64,000 bases of DNA from Pseudomonas triticicola (lineage in GTDB: Bacteria; Pseudomonadota; Gammaproteobacteria; Pseudomonadales; Pseudomonadaceae). The notes beneath the pieces are model-generated. The model was not told the origin of the DNA, searched no databases, and saw only the letters and a program-made list of their open reading frames with translations. A program made the position numbers and the translations under genes. Where the stretch lies: positions 562,001-626,000 of the forward strand of contig NZ_JAHSTX010000002.1 in the NCBI RefSeq assembly GCF_019145375.1, in the 5' to 3' direction. This document shows, in pieces, positions 46,257 through 52,753 of the stretch. Each line of letters opens with the position of its first letter. Position 1 is the first letter of the stretch.

Positions 46257-46288
46257 AAAAAAGGGCCTGCGATTGCAGGCCTTTTTTC
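46257..46288. terminator. Bidirectional terminator between zapE and the asparaginase gene
   Basis: A6 GGGCCTGCGATTGCAGGCC T6; it overlaps the final codons of the convergent asparaginase-like gene by two bases. Confidence 0.88.
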
Positions 46289-47273
46289 ATGGCGTGGATT
46301 CAGCGAGGCATTTGACCAACTGTGCTTGCTGTCGGCAGGCAACCAGAAGCCATAACAGGATTCTCGCTTTGCGCGGGCAGAGAAATCCTGCCATGACGGC
46401 GCCTTTGCGCGTGAGATCGATTTCACTGCCGGCGAAGCCATACGTCGCTTGCGCAGTCGCGCCGCAACCGGTGCGGGTGGCAATGATCACCGGGATGTGC
46501 CGGGCGATGCCTTCGATGACCTCGGCCCAGTGCGCGGAAACATGGCCCGCGCCAAAGCCGGCGATCACCAGGCCGTCGTAACCCGACTCGACTATCTTGT
46601 CCAACAGCATACTGTCCGCACCAAGTGATGCTTCCAGTAACGCAATCTTCGGGAGCGTGTCTTGCGGCATCGGCAATACATGGCGCGCAACGGGCGGCTG
46701 AAAGTAGCGCGGTGCGCTTTCGACCAACAAGCCGGCAGGGCCGGTCAAGGGCGAGGCGAAGGCGTGCATGGCCATTGAATCGACCTTGCGCACGCTATTG
46801 GCGCGGTGAATCTCGCCGTTGATAACCACCTGTGCTCCGCGCCCACGACTGCATGCCGCTAATGCAACGCGACCGGCATCCAGCAGGTTTGCCGGGCCGT
46901 CAGCCCCCGCTTGCATGGCAGAGCGCATGGCGCCAGTCAGCACCAGTGGCTCGTCGTGCGCCCACAGGTAGTCGAAGAAAGTGGCGGATTCCTCCAGAGT
47001 GTCTGTCCCCTGGATGATGATGACTGCGGCCACGCCTCGGCTGATCTGCGCGTTGGCCCAGTCCAATACGTTCAAAAGGTATTCGAAATCCAGCGAAGCG
47101 CTGGGTAACAGACCGAAAGTCTCGACGGTTGCTCGTGCGAGCACATTCAACTCCGGCACGGTGTTCAGCAACGCTTCGCCGGACACCGCCGGAACGACGC
47201 CTTGGCCGTCTTGCGTCGATTGCATGCTGACAGTGCCGCCGAGAGCGGCAATCGCCAGTTTTGGCAGTTCCAT
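46287..47273 (-). CDS. Asparaginase/glutaminase-family amidohydrolase
   Basis: A 328-residue member of the type II asparaginase family. The first nucleophile threonine is T14 (ALGGTVSMQ), the Thr-Asp pair is T90-D91 (IIQGTDTLEES), and lysine K163 lies in NSVRKVDSMAMH, all at canonical spacing. The signature TGAMRSAMQAGADGPANL is clear. There is no signal peptide, so it is cytoplasmic. The exact substrate is uncertain; next to an amino-acid oxidase and a nitrilase-family gene it may act on a different omega-amide. Last gene of the accessory block, 66 bp after the membrane protein gene. Confidence 0.88.
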   Translation of the reverse strand: MELPKLAIAALGGTVSMQSTQDGQGVVPAVSGEALLNTVPELNVLARATVETFGLLPSASLDFEYLLNVLDWANAQISRGVAAVIIIQGTDTLEESATFFDYLWAHDEPLVLTGAMRSAMQAGADGPANLLDAGRVALAACSRGRGAQVVINGEIHRANSVRKVDSMAMHAFASPLTGPAGLLVESAPRYFQPPVARHVLPMPQDTLPKIALLEASLGADSMLLDKIVESGYDGLVIAGFGAGHVSAHWAEVIEGIARHIPVIIATRTGCGATAQATYGFAGSEIDLTRKGAVMAGFLCPRKARILLWLLVACRQQAQLVKCLAESTP

Positions 47274-47339
47274 GTGATACCTCGCGAATAACCGGCTGTT
47301 CTGGAGACGATCCAGAAGCCAGCCGGGGCAGGGATAAAG

Positions 47340-48545
47340 TCAGTGGCTGGCGAGCCATCCAACGATTGGCAGGATCAACAGCGTACTGAGAGCCATCGAC
47401 AAAACGTTACCGATGAAACCGTGCATGTAGCCCGGCAGTCGCTGCGCGAGCGCGCAGGCCAATGGCGGAGCGATCAGGGCGCCGAGCAGCGCACTGGAAA
47501 TGATCACTTGCCATTCGCCGCCGTAGGTAAAGATCGCAGCCGGTACAACGGACACCAGCGGCACATAAGTCGGATACCAACCGCGCGCCATCCACTGCCT
47601 GCGCCAGATCACCACGCCCAGTGCCGACGTCAGTGCCTGACCGGCCAGCAGTTGCGGCAGCAGACCGGTGCCGTAGACCGGGCTCATTGGGTTGAGTGTA
47701 AATGCGAGCAACGCGCCGACAATCAGTCCCAGGCTCGCCCACTCATTGCCGAAGAAAGGTGCTTCGGAGAAATCCGCCAAGACCCGGCGCATGCTCCATA
47801 CCACGCCATAATCCGGCGCCCTGCCGGACACGGTGACGCTGAATTCCTCGGCAGACGGGTCGGGCTGCGCTGATTTCACCAGGCTTGGCACGTAGCGACA
47901 AAGCACGAAGGCGCCGATGCTGGCGATGGCCATGCCCGAAACATTGCCAATCACCACGGGCAGACCGAGTGGGTTACATACGTAATTGACCATCAGCAGG
48001 CACAGCGGTGTCACGCACAGTGCGCCCATGATTGCGCCGTTAATGGCAACTTTCCAGCCGGCACCGAACATGAGCACCATGGCCGCAGGCAACGACACGA
48101 ATGCCGCAAAGGTTGGCTGCCAACTGGTGGCGGTGACAGTCCAGCCCCATAGCAGATTGCTCAGCACCAGGCCCAGCAATGAGCTTGTGACCAGCCACGG
48201 CCAGAGCCCGCTGCCGTAACAGATGGTGAAGCCTTGCCAGGCTTTTCCCGTTCGATTCGCCCAATAGCCCAGATATGCACCAGCCAGCAGGCCGATCGAG
48301 GCAAACTCATGTTTATAGAATGCTACCTCGCTGATATCCCCGAGCACCCAGCGCAGCCAGGCAGCAGCGTCGGGAAAGTTCGAGACCATATGGCCGTAAT
48401 CCGGCCAGCGTGCCGACCACAACGAATGATGGGTGAGCGATAGCCAGGCAATCAATGCGGTCGCACCCAGAATCAGGCCGATGATGGTGCTATCCATCGC
48501 GGTTCTGGCCACGATTGTTTTGCGTTGCTTTGCGTGAATGTCCAT
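47340..48545 (-). CDS. Membrane protein with internal duplication, transporter-like, unknown family
   Basis: A 401-residue integral membrane protein with about ten hydrophobic segments. Its two halves are homologous: DISEVAFYKHEFASIGLLAG with DFSEAPFFGNEWASLGLIVG, SWQPTFAAFVSLPAAMVLMF with GWYPTYVPLVSVVPAAIFTY, and PVVIGNVSGMAIAS with HGFIGNVLSMALST. Two similar halves are the usual plan of transporters. I cannot name the family with confidence. I chose ATG 48545 (MDIHAKQRK), 14 bp after the nitrilase-family stop, so the pair is cotranscribed. A role in importing the amino acid or exporting the product is inferred only. Confidence 0.8.
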   Translation of the reverse strand: MDIHAKQRKTIVARTAMDSTIIGLILGATALIAWLSLTHHSLWSARWPDYGHMVSNFPDAAAWLRWVLGDISEVAFYKHEFASIGLLAGAYLGYWANRTGKAWQGFTICYGSGLWPWLVTSSLLGLVLSNLLWGWTVTATSWQPTFAAFVSLPAAMVLMFGAGWKVAINGAIMGALCVTPLCLLMVNYVCNPLGLPVVIGNVSGMAIASIGAFVLCRYVPSLVKSAQPDPSAEEFSVTVSGRAPDYGVVWSMRRVLADFSEAPFFGNEWASLGLIVGALLAFTLNPMSPVYGTGLLPQLLAGQALTSALGVVIWRRQWMARGWYPTYVPLVSVVPAAIFTYGGEWQVIISSALLGALIAPPLACALAQRLPGYMHGFIGNVLSMALSTLLILPIVGWLASH

Positions 48546-48559
48546 AGCCCGGCCTCCGG

Positions 48560-49447
48560 TCAACGCGGCAGGCACGGATGCTGGGTGTAACCGAGCATCC
48601 GATCGTAGACATCACAACGCCGATCACGGTGCAGGTCGTTCAGGTCATTCCAGATCGGCGCACTGCGCGAGCTGGTCAAATCGATATCGGCGTAGAGAAT
48701 CTCCTGCTGATCGGCGGATGCGACCCGGCCGATCGGCCAGCCGTTGGTGCCGGCAATCAAAGAGCATCCCAGGTAGCGAGCACCGCGCTCTTCGCCGATT
48801 CTGCTCGCTGCCGCGATAAACACATTGTTGACGTGCGCTGCGGTCATGGTCAGGTACGAGGCCATGCATTTGCCGGCGTCATCGAATAGTGGCGGTGGCG
48901 TCCAGACCCAATTGTTCAGACTGCAGATAATGTCCGCGCCCTGCTGGCTGAGGATTCTCGGGACTTCGGGAAACCAGATGTCCCAGCAGATCAGCATGCC
49001 GATACGGCCGATCGGCGTTTCGAATACCGGGAAACCACAATCCCCCGCAGTGAACCAGAGCTTCTCGAGATTCCACAGGTGCGCCTTGCGGTATTTGCCA
49101 ATGAAACCGTCAGGCCCCACCAGCACGGCTGTGTTGTAAAGGCGCGCTCCGTAGCGCTCGGTCAGCCCGGCCACCAGATACACCTGATGTTGGCGAGCAA
49201 AATCCTCCCATCGGCTCACGCTCGGCCCATCCGGAACCGATTCGGCGTGATCGAACGCATCCTGTCGAGTGCGAAAGAAATAACCGGTGTTTGTCAGCTC
49301 GGGCAAAACGATGAGGTTGGCACCACCATTGACCGCCTGAAGTGACAACTCCAGGCTGTTGCTCAGATTCGCTGCACGATTTTGCGTACCGACCTGCGGA
49401 TCACATTGCACGACCGCGACACGAACGGGGCTGGTTGACTCACTCAT
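48560..49447 (-). CDS. Carbon-nitrogen hydrolase (nitrilase superfamily amidase)
   Basis: A 295-residue amidohydrolase. The catalytic triad is E50 (LIVLPELTN), K120 (YRKAHLWN) and C153 (MLICWDIWFPE). Members hydrolyse aliphatic amides, carbamoyl compounds or nitriles; amidase activity is the commonest for this subgroup. It lies beside an FAD amino-acid oxidase/monooxygenase, a pairing seen in the lysine 2-monooxygenase/5-aminovaleramidase (DavB/DavA) system, where the oxidase makes an amide that the hydrolase opens. No signal peptide. ATG 49447 (MSESTSPVRVAVVQCD) is clear. Confidence 0.88.
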   Translation of the reverse strand: MSESTSPVRVAVVQCDPQVGTQNRAANLSNSLELSLQAVNGGANLIVLPELTNTGYFFRTRQDAFDHAESVPDGPSVSRWEDFARQHQVYLVAGLTERYGARLYNTAVLVGPDGFIGKYRKAHLWNLEKLWFTAGDCGFPVFETPIGRIGMLICWDIWFPEVPRILSQQGADIICSLNNWVWTPPPLFDDAGKCMASYLTMTAAHVNNVFIAAASRIGEERGARYLGCSLIAGTNGWPIGRVASADQQEILYADIDLTSSRSAPIWNDLNDLHRDRRCDVYDRMLGYTQHPCLPR

Positions 49448-49624
49448 TTTTCATGATCCCTTATTGTTGTTTTCACGCCATTGGGTGGCGGAGGAACATA
49501 AGAGTCGAGTCAGCAGTGGAAGGTAAGTCGGCGCTTTCCGGTTAGCTTGTAGTACACCTCCTAGGATGATTAAACACATATCGACGGTGCACGCTCAGGA
49601 CGCCGAATTGCATGACTGAAAGCT

Positions 49625-51574
49625 TCATGGTCCGGCCTGGTAGTGTGGATAGTCGGTTATCTGGAAGCCGCCATTGAACTGCGCCGAGGTTTTTTCGCAA
49701 ATATGAATTACAGCATCGATGGCACCGCGAAAGCAGGGCTCGGTCCAGCCGGCATCCACCGAAAACGATTCGCCAGACAAATACAGCCCCGAAACACGGG
49801 AATACTCGCGGTTGTATTTCATCAGGCTTAAAGCGTCGTAGTAGGCGCCGGGGCGGTAAAGTTTGGCGCACCCCAGTGAGTTCTTATCGGTGATCCAGCG
49901 CTGTACGACGGCCTGATTGAGGCCAATGAAAGGCGAGATGCGTTGCCCGATATTGCTGCAGTTCATCAGGATTCGATCAAGTTCTTCGGCACATTTGGCG
50001 ACCAGTTCCTTGTCGCTGAAACAGCAGAGTTTGGTAGCGTCATCTTCCCAGGTATAACTGAGAAGAATGCAGTCGTAGCTGTAGTGATCGTTATAGCGGT
50101 AGGTATAAACATCGTGGATGAAGCTGTCCGTGACGATGGCTTGGGGGATAGCGGTGTTGCCGGACAGAAAGGATTTCTTCAGCGGAGCGAACACCTTGCA
50201 GCTGGTTTCCCAATGCGCAGTCTTGTAGGCATTAATCGCTTCGAACGGCAACATTTGTACCGTGAAGTTTTCAAGCCTGATTCGTGTTTCGATCAACCAC
50301 GAAGGCAGCGTCATTATCACGGAGTCATAATCGCTGAAATTTTCCTGGGCCTGATGGGGGCGACTTTGCTTCCAGTTGTAGTAGACACGGGTTTTACCGC
50401 TGTCGAGCTTTTTCAGCCGAGTGACGGAGCTATCAGTCAGCAAACCTTCGCGGTATTGCAGGCTGTGTTCGTGGAAAGACATCGCTGTTTCATCAGGTTT
50501 GATGAACATAAGGCTTTCACTCAGCGCCGCCAGACCTAGGTAGCGCGGGCCTTCGAACTGCAGCCCGGTTGAATCGAAAACCGCATTGCTGCGGATATGC
50601 GGTGAGTCAGGCAGAGGATCGCCTTTTTCATCTACCCGACCCAGCACCAGTTGCAAGTGACTGCTGAACCCGAAGATGGCAGTGCGCAGAGGGTAGAGTG
50701 CACAGACGTCATAGAATGCGCCCCAGCTGCCGTCACCGATGCCGATGGCATAAAAAATGGCCGATTCCTCTGGCGACATTCCCATCCCGCCAAAATCGCC
50801 CGGCGCGTCTTTTTCCCAGCGTTGCAGCACCGGCATGCTCACCAGATCACGGAAGGAAATGGCGTGATACCTGGCGACAATAGCTGCCCACACGGACTCC
50901 CATTCCTCGCTCGCATAACTGTCGCAAACGTGCCGGGTCATGCGGTAGGCGAACGCTCTCCATTTTGCATACACCGCTTGTAGCTCCTCGCCGGGAGGGC
51001 GGGTCTGACCGTCGGCGTTTTTCCAGATAAGCATTTGCGGCGTAGCCTGCTCTGACAGGCTGCCCTCGCGCAGATAGATGCCGGTTGATTTGACCCATTG
51101 GCTGCCGGGATTGGCAAAATCTGAAAGGGCCAGGTCGAATATCGTCGTGTAGTAGGCCATCAGCGAACGACCTTCCTTCGGCGATTCTCCTTCGCGATTG
51201 AACAAAGGCATACGCATCGCACCCATTTCGAACGGGGTATGGCTGGCCTTGGATTGAGGACTGCCGGGAACGGTCAGGTGCCTGCCGCCGATTCGCGAGG
51301 ACTGTTCGATCAGCGTGATCTGGGTGAAGCCGCAGCGCAGCAATTCTCTCGCTGCCGTCAGGCCTGTGATGCCTGCGCCGATGATGCAGATTCGATGGCT
51401 CGAATCAGTCGCTCGGGCGATTCCGCCTGGCTGCTCCAGTAACGCGCGATAGTCAAAACACAGGTCCGGCGGATTGGGGAAACGGGCTTTCCATTTTTCC
51501 TGTGGCGAACGTTTTTTGCGTTTTTCAAGGCCAGGAGCCTGTGAGGGATAGTTGTAGCTGGAGCCGATGGTCAC
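49625..51574 (-). CDS. FAD L-amino-acid oxidase/2-monooxygenase-like protein
   Basis: A 649-residue flavin amine oxidase-family protein. The FAD motif is ICIIGAGITGLTAARELL (residues 62-79), with GxG at 66-68, E90 in the ribose contact and RIGGRH following. The C-terminus SGESFSVDAGWTEPCFRGAI resembles L-amino-acid oxidases and tryptophan/phenylalanine/lysine 2-monooxygenases. The 60-residue N-terminal leader (MTIGSSYNYPSQAPGLEKRK) recalls the propeptide-like extension of Pseudomonas phenylalanine 2-monooxygenase. Which amino acid it takes is unknown. Its base composition looks less GC-rich than its neighbours, suggesting transfer. Confidence 0.82.
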   Translation of the reverse strand: MTIGSSYNYPSQAPGLEKRKKRSPQEKWKARFPNPPDLCFDYRALLEQPGGIARATDSSHRICIIGAGITGLTAARELLRCGFTQITLIEQSSRIGGRHLTVPGSPQSKASHTPFEMGAMRMPLFNREGESPKEGRSLMAYYTTIFDLALSDFANPGSQWVKSTGIYLREGSLSEQATPQMLIWKNADGQTRPPGEELQAVYAKWRAFAYRMTRHVCDSYASEEWESVWAAIVARYHAISFRDLVSMPVLQRWEKDAPGDFGGMGMSPEESAIFYAIGIGDGSWGAFYDVCALYPLRTAIFGFSSHLQLVLGRVDEKGDPLPDSPHIRSNAVFDSTGLQFEGPRYLGLAALSESLMFIKPDETAMSFHEHSLQYREGLLTDSSVTRLKKLDSGKTRVYYNWKQSRPHQAQENFSDYDSVIMTLPSWLIETRIRLENFTVQMLPFEAINAYKTAHWETSCKVFAPLKKSFLSGNTAIPQAIVTDSFIHDVYTYRYNDHYSYDCILLSYTWEDDATKLCCFSDKELVAKCAEELDRILMNCSNIGQRISPFIGLNQAVVQRWITDKNSLGCAKLYRPGAYYDALSLMKYNREYSRVSGLYLSGESFSVDAGWTEPCFRGAIDAVIHICEKTSAQFNGGFQITDYPHYQAGP

Positions 51575-51740: not shown

Positions 51741-51757
51741 GTCAGTCTGGCGGAAGT

Positions 51758-52753
51758 TTACGCAGCCTGCTGAAACTGTTGCCGATACTGGTTAGGCGAC
51801 AGTTCGGTGTGCTGGCGGAACAATCGCGCAAAAAAGCTCGCATCGTCGTAACCGACCTCATAACTGATGGTCTTGATGCTCTTGCGCGTGCCCGAAAGCA
51901 AGCCCTTGGCCGTCTCGATGCGCAGGCGTTGCAAGTAGTGCAGCGGTTTGTCGCCGGTGGCGGTCTGGAAGCGGCGCATGAAGTTGCGGATGCTCATGCC
52001 GTGCTCGCGGGCGACGTCTTCGAAGCGGAATTTGTCGGCGAAATGTTCTTCGAGCCATTGCTGGATCTGCAGGATGATCACGTCCTGATGCAGCTTCTGC
52101 CCACCAAAACCGATACGTCCCGGCGAATAGCTGCGCTGCACTTCGTAGAGGATGTCGCGGGCCACGGCTTGCGCCACGTTCGCGCCGCAGAAGCGTTCGA
52201 TCAGATAGATATAGAGATCGCAGGCCGAGGTCGTACCGCCGGCGCAGTACAGATTGTCAGCATCGGTCAGGTGCTTGTCCTGATTCAGATAGACCTTGGG
52301 GAAACGTTCGGCGAAGGCATTGAAGAAGCGCCAGTAGGTGGTTGCTTCCTTGCCGTTGAGCAGCCCGGCTTCGGCGAGCCAGAACACCCCGGTGGCTTCG
52401 CCGCATAACACCGCGCCGCGCGCATGCTGTTCGCGCAGCCACGGCAGGATTTGCGGGTAACGGCCACACAGCGTATCGAAGTCGTCCCAGAACGCCGGGA
52501 GGATGATCACATCGGCGTTTTCCAGGCCACCGTCGACCGGCATGACCACGTCGCTGAAGCTTTTTACCGGTTTGCCATCCGGGCTGACCAGGCGCGTTTC
52601 GAACGCCGGTGTCAGGCCGTGGCCCAGTTGTTTGCCGTAACGCAGGCTGGCCACATGGAAAAAATCCTTGGCCTGCATGAGGGTGTAAGCGAAAACCCGG
52701 TCGATGGCCAGGATGCTGACGCGCCGCAAGGGCGGGGAGACGTGCTTAGACAT
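51758..52753 (-). CDS. GlxA-family transcriptional regulator (DJ-1/PfpI + AraC HTH)
   Basis: A 331-residue regulator. Residues about 10-200 form a DJ-1/PfpI-like ligand domain with the elbow region AVLCGEATGVFWLAEAG. The C-terminal AraC/XylS domain contains FRFEDVAREHGMSIRNFMRR and the second HTH SIKTISYEVGYDDASFFARL. This layout is shared with regulators of amino-acid derivatives such as carnitine and arginine in Pseudomonas. It is divergent from the acyl-CoA dehydrogenase gene and upstream of the amino-acid oxidase block, and it could control either. A relative seems to sit by the acyl-CoA dehydrogenase in P. aeruginosa, so the oxidase block is the likely newcomer. Confidence 0.9.
   Translation of the reverse strand: MSKHVSPPLRRVSILAIDRVFAYTLMQAKDFFHVASLRYGKQLGHGLTPAFETRLVSPDGKPVKSFSDVVMPVDGGLENADVIILPAFWDDFDTLCGRYPQILPWLREQHARGAVLCGEATGVFWLAEAGLLNGKEATTYWRFFNAFAERFPKVYLNQDKHLTDADNLYCAGGTTSACDLYIYLIERFCGANVAQAVARDILYEVQRSYSPGRIGFGGQKLHQDVIILQIQQWLEEHFADKFRFEDVAREHGMSIRNFMRRFQTATGDKPLHYLQRLRIETAKGLLSGTRKSIKTISYEVGYDDASFFARLFRQHTELSPNQYRQQFQQAA

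Follow-up and report, generated by a model that had tools for sequence, protein, structure and literature searches.

The 64,000-nucleotide stretch of Pseudomonas triticicola considered here (the window; contig NZ_JAHSTX010000002.1, positions 562,001 to 626,000) carries, between zapE and a GlxA-type regulator gene, a block of four genes that encode a flavin enzyme (OXI), a nitrilase-superfamily protein (NIT), a membrane protein (MEM) and an asparaginase-like protein (ASN), and that together form a candidate amide-handling operon. All four open reading frames (ORFs) that an earlier sequence-only reading of this DNA had placed on one strand are present on the minus strand, where they are read in the order OXI, NIT, MEM, ASN. 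The block and its boundaries comprise the following features.

49625..51574, minus strand: OXI, flavin L-amino acid oxidase/2-monooxygenase-type protein, 649 amino acids, GTG start
48560..49447, minus strand: NIT, nitrilase-superfamily (CN_hydrolase) amidase-like protein, 295 amino acids
47340..48545, minus strand: MEM, membrane protein with a predicted urea-transporter fold and two homologous halves, 401 amino acids from ATG
46287..47273, minus strand: ASN, type II asparaginase-like amidohydrolase, an optional member, 328 amino acids
51575..51757, minus strand: promoter-side region of the block, reaching to the insertion boundary; like the block, unaligned in six empty-site relatives
46257..46287, no strand assigned: terminator-like inverted repeat 3' of zapE, read from the sequence, at the left block boundary

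The ORF list begins MEM at a GTG at 48575 (47340-48575); because close homologues are mostly 401-403 amino acids long, the ATG at 48545 is preferred. OXI matches the Pfam Amino_oxidase model (1.6e-25), NIT the CN_hydrolase model (1.5e-55) and ASN the N and C domains of Asparaginase (1.4e-46 and 1.8e-21). The MEM of the window matches no Pfam or NCBIfam model at 1e-3, and none of the four proteins reaches an NCBIfam curated cut-off. Among the matches listed, the closest named relative of OXI is from P. siliginis (98%) and that of MEM is from P. atacamensis (96%).

The four genes are linked far beyond chance. Of 66 neighbourhoods gathered (40 + 26), gene order was counted in L021-L060, where 39 of 40 are usable, L047 ending right after OXI. 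NIT follows OXI on the same strand in all 39, and MEM follows NIT in 37, lying upstream of OXI in L040 and L042. The sequence-only reading had proposed a survey of other genomes, with rare co-occurrence of the genes counting against it; the linkage held in that survey. ASN accompanies OXI, NIT and MEM in 29 of the 39 neighbourhoods and is missing from 10, and a genome-wide search of these ten genomes gave distant asparaginases only. Because codon-scored ORF annotation of the neighbours misses some OXI copies, copy counts were taken from tblastn. MEM occurs in 66 of 199 Pseudomonas genomes, and near full-length OXI (at least 58% identity) in 44 of the 199, own genome included, two of these copies (G037, G121) bearing an in-frame stop. 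All 44 are among the 66 genomes with MEM, as against none of the 133 without it; G024, which has no MEM, holds pieces of OXI and ASN and no NIT. Outside the genus, OXI is found at 1e-10 in two of 369 genomes of the class, namely the own genome and one 25% match, and the MEM profile finds two of 244 genomes of the order and two of 349 of the phylum, both times the own genome and its congener G136. The OXI loci listed, for 80 of 227 relatives, are all from Pseudomonas; they include L114 of the laboratory soil strain P. fluorescens FW300-N2E3. The block is therefore seen only in Pseudomonas within the sampled genomes, samples that are thin and amount to no proof of genus restriction.

In the remaining 22 genomes with MEM, near full-length OXI is lacking. 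Of their NIT genes, 21 are intact and the one in L077 is broken; the NIT of L071 has an unusual N-terminus. Pieces of OXI lie beside NIT in 10 of the 22 (G057, G076, G081, G085, G102, G122, G153, G171, G197 and G067, the piece in G067 being weak, at 44% with one stop). These remnants carry internal deletions, frameshifts or stops, and they are losses. In L064 (G007) and L070 (G081) the contig ends just upstream of NIT, where OXI may be cut by the assembly, and neither genome has another OXI elsewhere. OXI is the disposable member of the block. Because it is often lost while NIT is kept, and because ASN is optional, the core is NIT and MEM rather than an oxidase with two hydrolases. Decay of MEM itself takes the form of split genes in L023 and L028 and a stop in L026. 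As to the form of the broken genes, OXI in L067, L079 and L071 keeps its start (to residue 100-171) and its last 100-180 residues with the middle gone, and in L070 residues 546-648 alone are seen, close to the contig end.

On the NIT tree, built quickly from 64 proteins and with 26 of its 61 inner branches open, the state of OXI (intact or not) changes at least 17 times and the presence of ASN at least four times, in a parsimony count that is blind to gain versus loss. The ratio of nonsynonymous to synonymous substitution rates (dN/dS) was obtained by a Nei-Gojobori count over pairs with dS of 0.05-1.2, which are non-independent and have a median dS near 1. Median values are 0.113 for OXI (55 pairs), 0.156 for NIT (561), 0.276 for MEM (386) and 0.265 for ASN (161). 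At loci with intact OXI they are 0.170 for NIT (263 pairs) and 0.299 for MEM (174), and at loci without it 0.103 (56 pairs) and 0.214 (35), respectively. NIT and MEM are under constraint also where OXI is gone.

The Glu-Lys-Cys triad of the nitrilase superfamily is present in NIT as Glu50, Lys121 and Cys154, invariant in 27/27 sequences. The nearest solved structures are 3ivz, 1j31, 6ypa and 7ovg, variously named nitrilase, hypothetical protein PH0642 or CN hydrolase. Mean column identity is highest in NIT (81%), followed by OXI (72%), ASN (68%) and MEM (65%), values that come from alignments with different row sets. The own genome holds seven further nitrilase-family matches, which share 29-37% identity with NIT and have no OXI-like gene within 1.5 kb; davBA was not located in this genome. 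In E. coli type II asparaginase the catalytic triad is Thr89, Lys162 and Asp90, and a second triad of these enzymes is formed by Thr12, Tyr25 and Glu283, with Tyr25 in a flexible loop. ASN has the first triad as Thr90 (26/27, with one Ser), Lys163 and Asp91 (both 27/27), and also keeps Thr14 and Glu284; the loop tyrosine is replaced by Gly25 (26 Gly and one Ala of 27). ASN scores 178.1 bits with NCBIfam TIGR00520 (type II asparaginase), under the cut-off of 314.3 bits, and its identification as an L-asparaginase was not adopted.

MEM is predicted to adopt a urea-transporter fold with two homologous halves, and a structure search with its model returned urea transporters. Named sources call it a hypothetical protein, a membrane protein or a threonine/serine exporter family protein. 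In Pfam searches at E up to 5, the ThrE model is hit by 23 of 48 MEM members (best 8.5e-4; 0.9 for the MEM of the window); a ThrE-type exporter, which the sequence alone would allow, was not adopted, the structure search having given urea transporters instead. Profiles were compared by hhalign with sets of 29 urea transporters, 30 Amt and 28 NqrB/RnfD proteins. Against the urea transporters, E-values are 1.2e-3 for full MEM, 0.037 for the first half and 2.4e-4 for the second; against Amt, 0.28, 0.58 and 0.68; and against NqrB/RnfD, 0.19, 0.072 and 0.029. Sequence homology between MEM and urea transporters is thus suggestive only. Searched against PDB sequences, the MEM profile gave two meaningless matches (E 2.4 and 2.8). 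Each half of MEM bears an acidic repeat, Asp70, Glu73 and Glu80 in one and Asp258, Glu261 and Glu268 in the other, invariant in 48/48 members. The genome also encodes a canonical urea transporter (G000:C1:2777375-2778163; PF03253, 1.6e-51), of a kind found in 124 of 149 genus genomes searched. A second MEM-like stretch, 55% identical, lies near the block in L059 (16905-17912 of the oriented locus).

OXI has the domain and fold of a flavin amine oxidase, and the solved sequence closest to it is a tryptophan 2-monooxygenase (TMO; 4iv9). Its predicted structure (mean predicted local distance difference test score of 72.7, below 50 at residues 278-306 and 561-573) scores 27.0 with L-AAO/MOG, 25.7 with TMO and at most 23.6 with snake L-amino acid oxidases. 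The carboxylate-binding arginine and tyrosine and the cage tryptophan of L-AAO/MOG are found in OXI as Arg121, Tyr507 and Trp610, aligned to TMO in significant segments and invariant in 40/40 sequences; the equivalence of TMO and L-AAO/MOG residues is in part our assumption. In L-AAO/MOG, Arg102 and Tyr416 bind the carboxylate and Trp516 contributes to the cage, these and the other residues cited for L-AAO/MOG, TMO and the phenylalanine enzyme PAO being taken from PMC5832979. Trp509, Ala570 and Gly609 of OXI also fall within significant segments and are invariant (40/40). Ala570 stands where TMO has Phe476, which we take to be the counterpart of Phe473 in L-AAO/MOG, and the second aromatic cage residue is absent; this is a difference of the pocket and no test of the reaction. 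Trp284 and Phe287 are likewise invariant (40/40), in an alignment segment that is collinear and not significant alone. By this weak mapping, Phe287 aligns with Asp238 of the lysine enzyme. The D238F mutant of that enzyme accepts Leu, Met and Phe but neither Asn nor Gln, with some Lys and Arg activity retained, according to the same source (PMC5832979). Because Phe287 matches the D238F state, the substrate of OXI is weakly suggested to be a neutral or hydrophobic amino acid, basic ones still being possible.

Taken together, the block is best read, with slightly better than even confidence, as an accessory amide-handling operon with NIT and MEM as its core, OXI as the amide-making enzyme and ASN as an optional member. 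The observations behind this reading are gene order, linkage, repeated breakage of OXI, purifying selection on NIT and MEM, the NIT triad and the predicted folds. OXI would convert an L-amino acid, probably with a neutral or hydrophobic side chain, by oxidative decarboxylation to an amide one carbon shorter, from which NIT, as an intracellular amidase, would release ammonia and an acid. A small amide would most likely cross the inner membrane through MEM, which is a divergent membrane protein, and a different amide may be the substrate of ASN. Where OXI has been lost, strains would still import and hydrolyze environmental amide. Within this scheme we infer whether OXI works as a monooxygenase or an oxidase, that an amide is the cargo, which way it is transported and which amide it is. 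The sequence-only reading fared unevenly here: its oxidase-amidase route is plausible, if unproven, and its proposal of a side-chain amide opened by two hydrolases is disfavored.

Several points weigh against the amide-handling reading. The phenylalanine oxidase/monooxygenase P-501 scores lower (21.0) than the snake oxidases with the OXI model, and the segment holding Trp284 and Phe287 scores 3.1 bits in one alignment and -1.2 bits in another and lies where the model is poor. PF03253 is not hit by any of the 48 MEM members (E up to 5, HMMER filters on), and the PF03253 match of the own genome is a different gene. The comparison of full MEM with urea transporters is not significant (probability 19%), and its first half barely favors them over NqrB/RnfD. 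The invariant acids in both halves could point to basic rather than neutral cargo, and the frequent loss of OXI also fits an enzyme unrelated to NIT and MEM. Along these lines, OXI could be a plain L-amino acid oxidase that yields a 2-oxo acid, ammonia and hydrogen peroxide in nutrition or antagonism, and that merely shares a promoter with an independent NIT-MEM pair. This is unlikely: every one of the 44 genomes with a near full-length OXI also has MEM, the pieces in G024 being found without it, and the OXI model is nearest to L-AAO/MOG and TMO. The link between OXI and the amidase is for these reasons not considered random.

An auxin route, in which OXI would turn tryptophan into indole-3-acetamide and NIT would release indole-3-acetic acid, draws on 4iv9 as the best solved relative, on several sources that label OXI homologues tryptophan 2-monooxygenase, and on Gly609, which matches the glycine of the tryptophan and phenylalanine enzymes (Gly518 and Gly659). 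It is nonetheless improbable, as OXI has Trp284, Phe287 and Ala570 (40/40; the first two weakly mapped) where the tryptophan enzyme has Phe244, Val247 and Phe476, and NIT is nitrilase-type whereas IaaH is an amidase-signature enzyme. The label is not a safe basis for naming the block an auxin maker. The sequence-only reading had instead envisaged Asn, Gln or a derivative as the amino acid, whose side chain bears an amide of its own, so that there would be one amide for each hydrolase to open. Asparaginase-like and nitrilase-like genes do stand together in 29 of the 39 neighbourhoods, but the other ten have OXI, NIT and MEM without ASN, ASN lacks the loop tyrosine and falls below the NCBIfam cut-off, and the aligned specificity residue of OXI is Phe; this proposal is very unlikely. 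A bolder form of the amide-handling reading, held only tentatively and more doubtful than otherwise, is that MEM is the first of a family of amide channels with a urea-transporter fold, and that strains divide into amide producers with intact OXI and consumers that repeatedly discarded it yet keep channel and amidase, the amide serving them in common as a good or a signal.

Among known systems, the block would work like DavB/DavA, an L-lysine 2-monooxygenase with a 5-aminovaleramidase, plus a channel. DavB/DavA and L-AAO/MOG of Pseudomonas sp. AIU 813 are the closest known; the block differs in Phe287 as opposed to Asp238 of the lysine enzyme, by the weak mapping, and has a membrane protein and ASN in addition. 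IaaM/IaaH follows the same logic of amino acid to amide to acid, and the IaaM-type 4iv9 is closest to OXI, but its hydrolase family and aligned pocket residues are other ones, and the block has an extra membrane protein. The block would also resemble the aliphatic amidase AmiE of P. aeruginosa and its amide channel AmiS, likewise a nitrilase-superfamily amidase with an amide-permeable membrane protein; AmiS belongs to the UreI/AmiS family, whereas MEM has a predicted urea-transporter fold, and the block has no internal regulator gene. Unlike the urea transporters (SLC14, PF03253), MEM does not match the Pfam model of that family, and its repeats read D-x-S-E...(H/N)-E as against G-x-x-Q/E-(V/I) in the canonical transporters compared. 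If the reading is correct, MEM would provide another amide/urea permeation module beside the canonical urea transporters and UreI/AmiS, one with no current Pfam or NCBIfam model match and tied to an amide made from an amino acid. A function would thereby be proposed for a gene labelled a hypothetical, membrane or threonine/serine exporter family protein, and a producer/consumer split could be tested directly, given that the first enzyme is lost again and again while channel and amidase are kept. In the UW4 genome report, an indole-3-acetamide route is assigned to a gene called tryptophan 2-monooxygenase, which may or may not be OXI (PMC3596284). The titles and abstract beginnings listed from the open-licence literature offered nothing on this operon. 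That literature gave no paper combining tryptophan 2-monooxygenase, nitrilase and asparaginase in Pseudomonas, none on phenylacetamide with phenylalanine 2-monooxygenase in Pseudomonas, none on an amidase of strain FW300-N2E3 and none on a selectivity-filter threonine in the urea transporter of Desulfovibrio vulgaris.

The block had also been taken for an insertion between zapE and the GlxA-type gene, which is borne out as a description. The comparison took in 30 zapE loci with 1.5 kb flanks, the best among 59 genomes searched. In 20 of them the GlxA-type gene adjoins zapE without the block, the block intervenes in six, and neither is within reach in four, one of which is the block carrier G006, with extra genes between zapE and the block. 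The site is clean, and BLASTN against six empty-site relatives places the junctions at 46287-46292 and 51757-51762. Two of the 20 empty sites belong to genomes that carry NIT-MEM elsewhere (G007 and G052), and the label of the zapE site changes at least four times on the NIT tree. A sigma-54 (nitrogen-control) promoter upstream of OXI was rejected, the best scores in 42 upstream regions being no higher than those of shuffles, and no common sigma-54 site was seen upstream of NIT at 12 loci that lack OXI, in regions scanned without shuffles.

The inverted-repeat stretch at 46257-46287 also aligns reversed in four of the six empty-site relatives (L290, L291, L293 and L294). No constant fifth gene surrounds the block in the 40 annotated neighbourhoods; five of them (L044, L046, L048, L049 and L053) have two extra genes between zapE and ASN. 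One encodes a protein of 262-265 amino acids that, judged by eye, looks like a metallo-beta-lactamase fold. The other encodes a second GlxA/AraC-like regulator of 302-324 amino acids, possibly a dedicated regulator of the block in these five loci.
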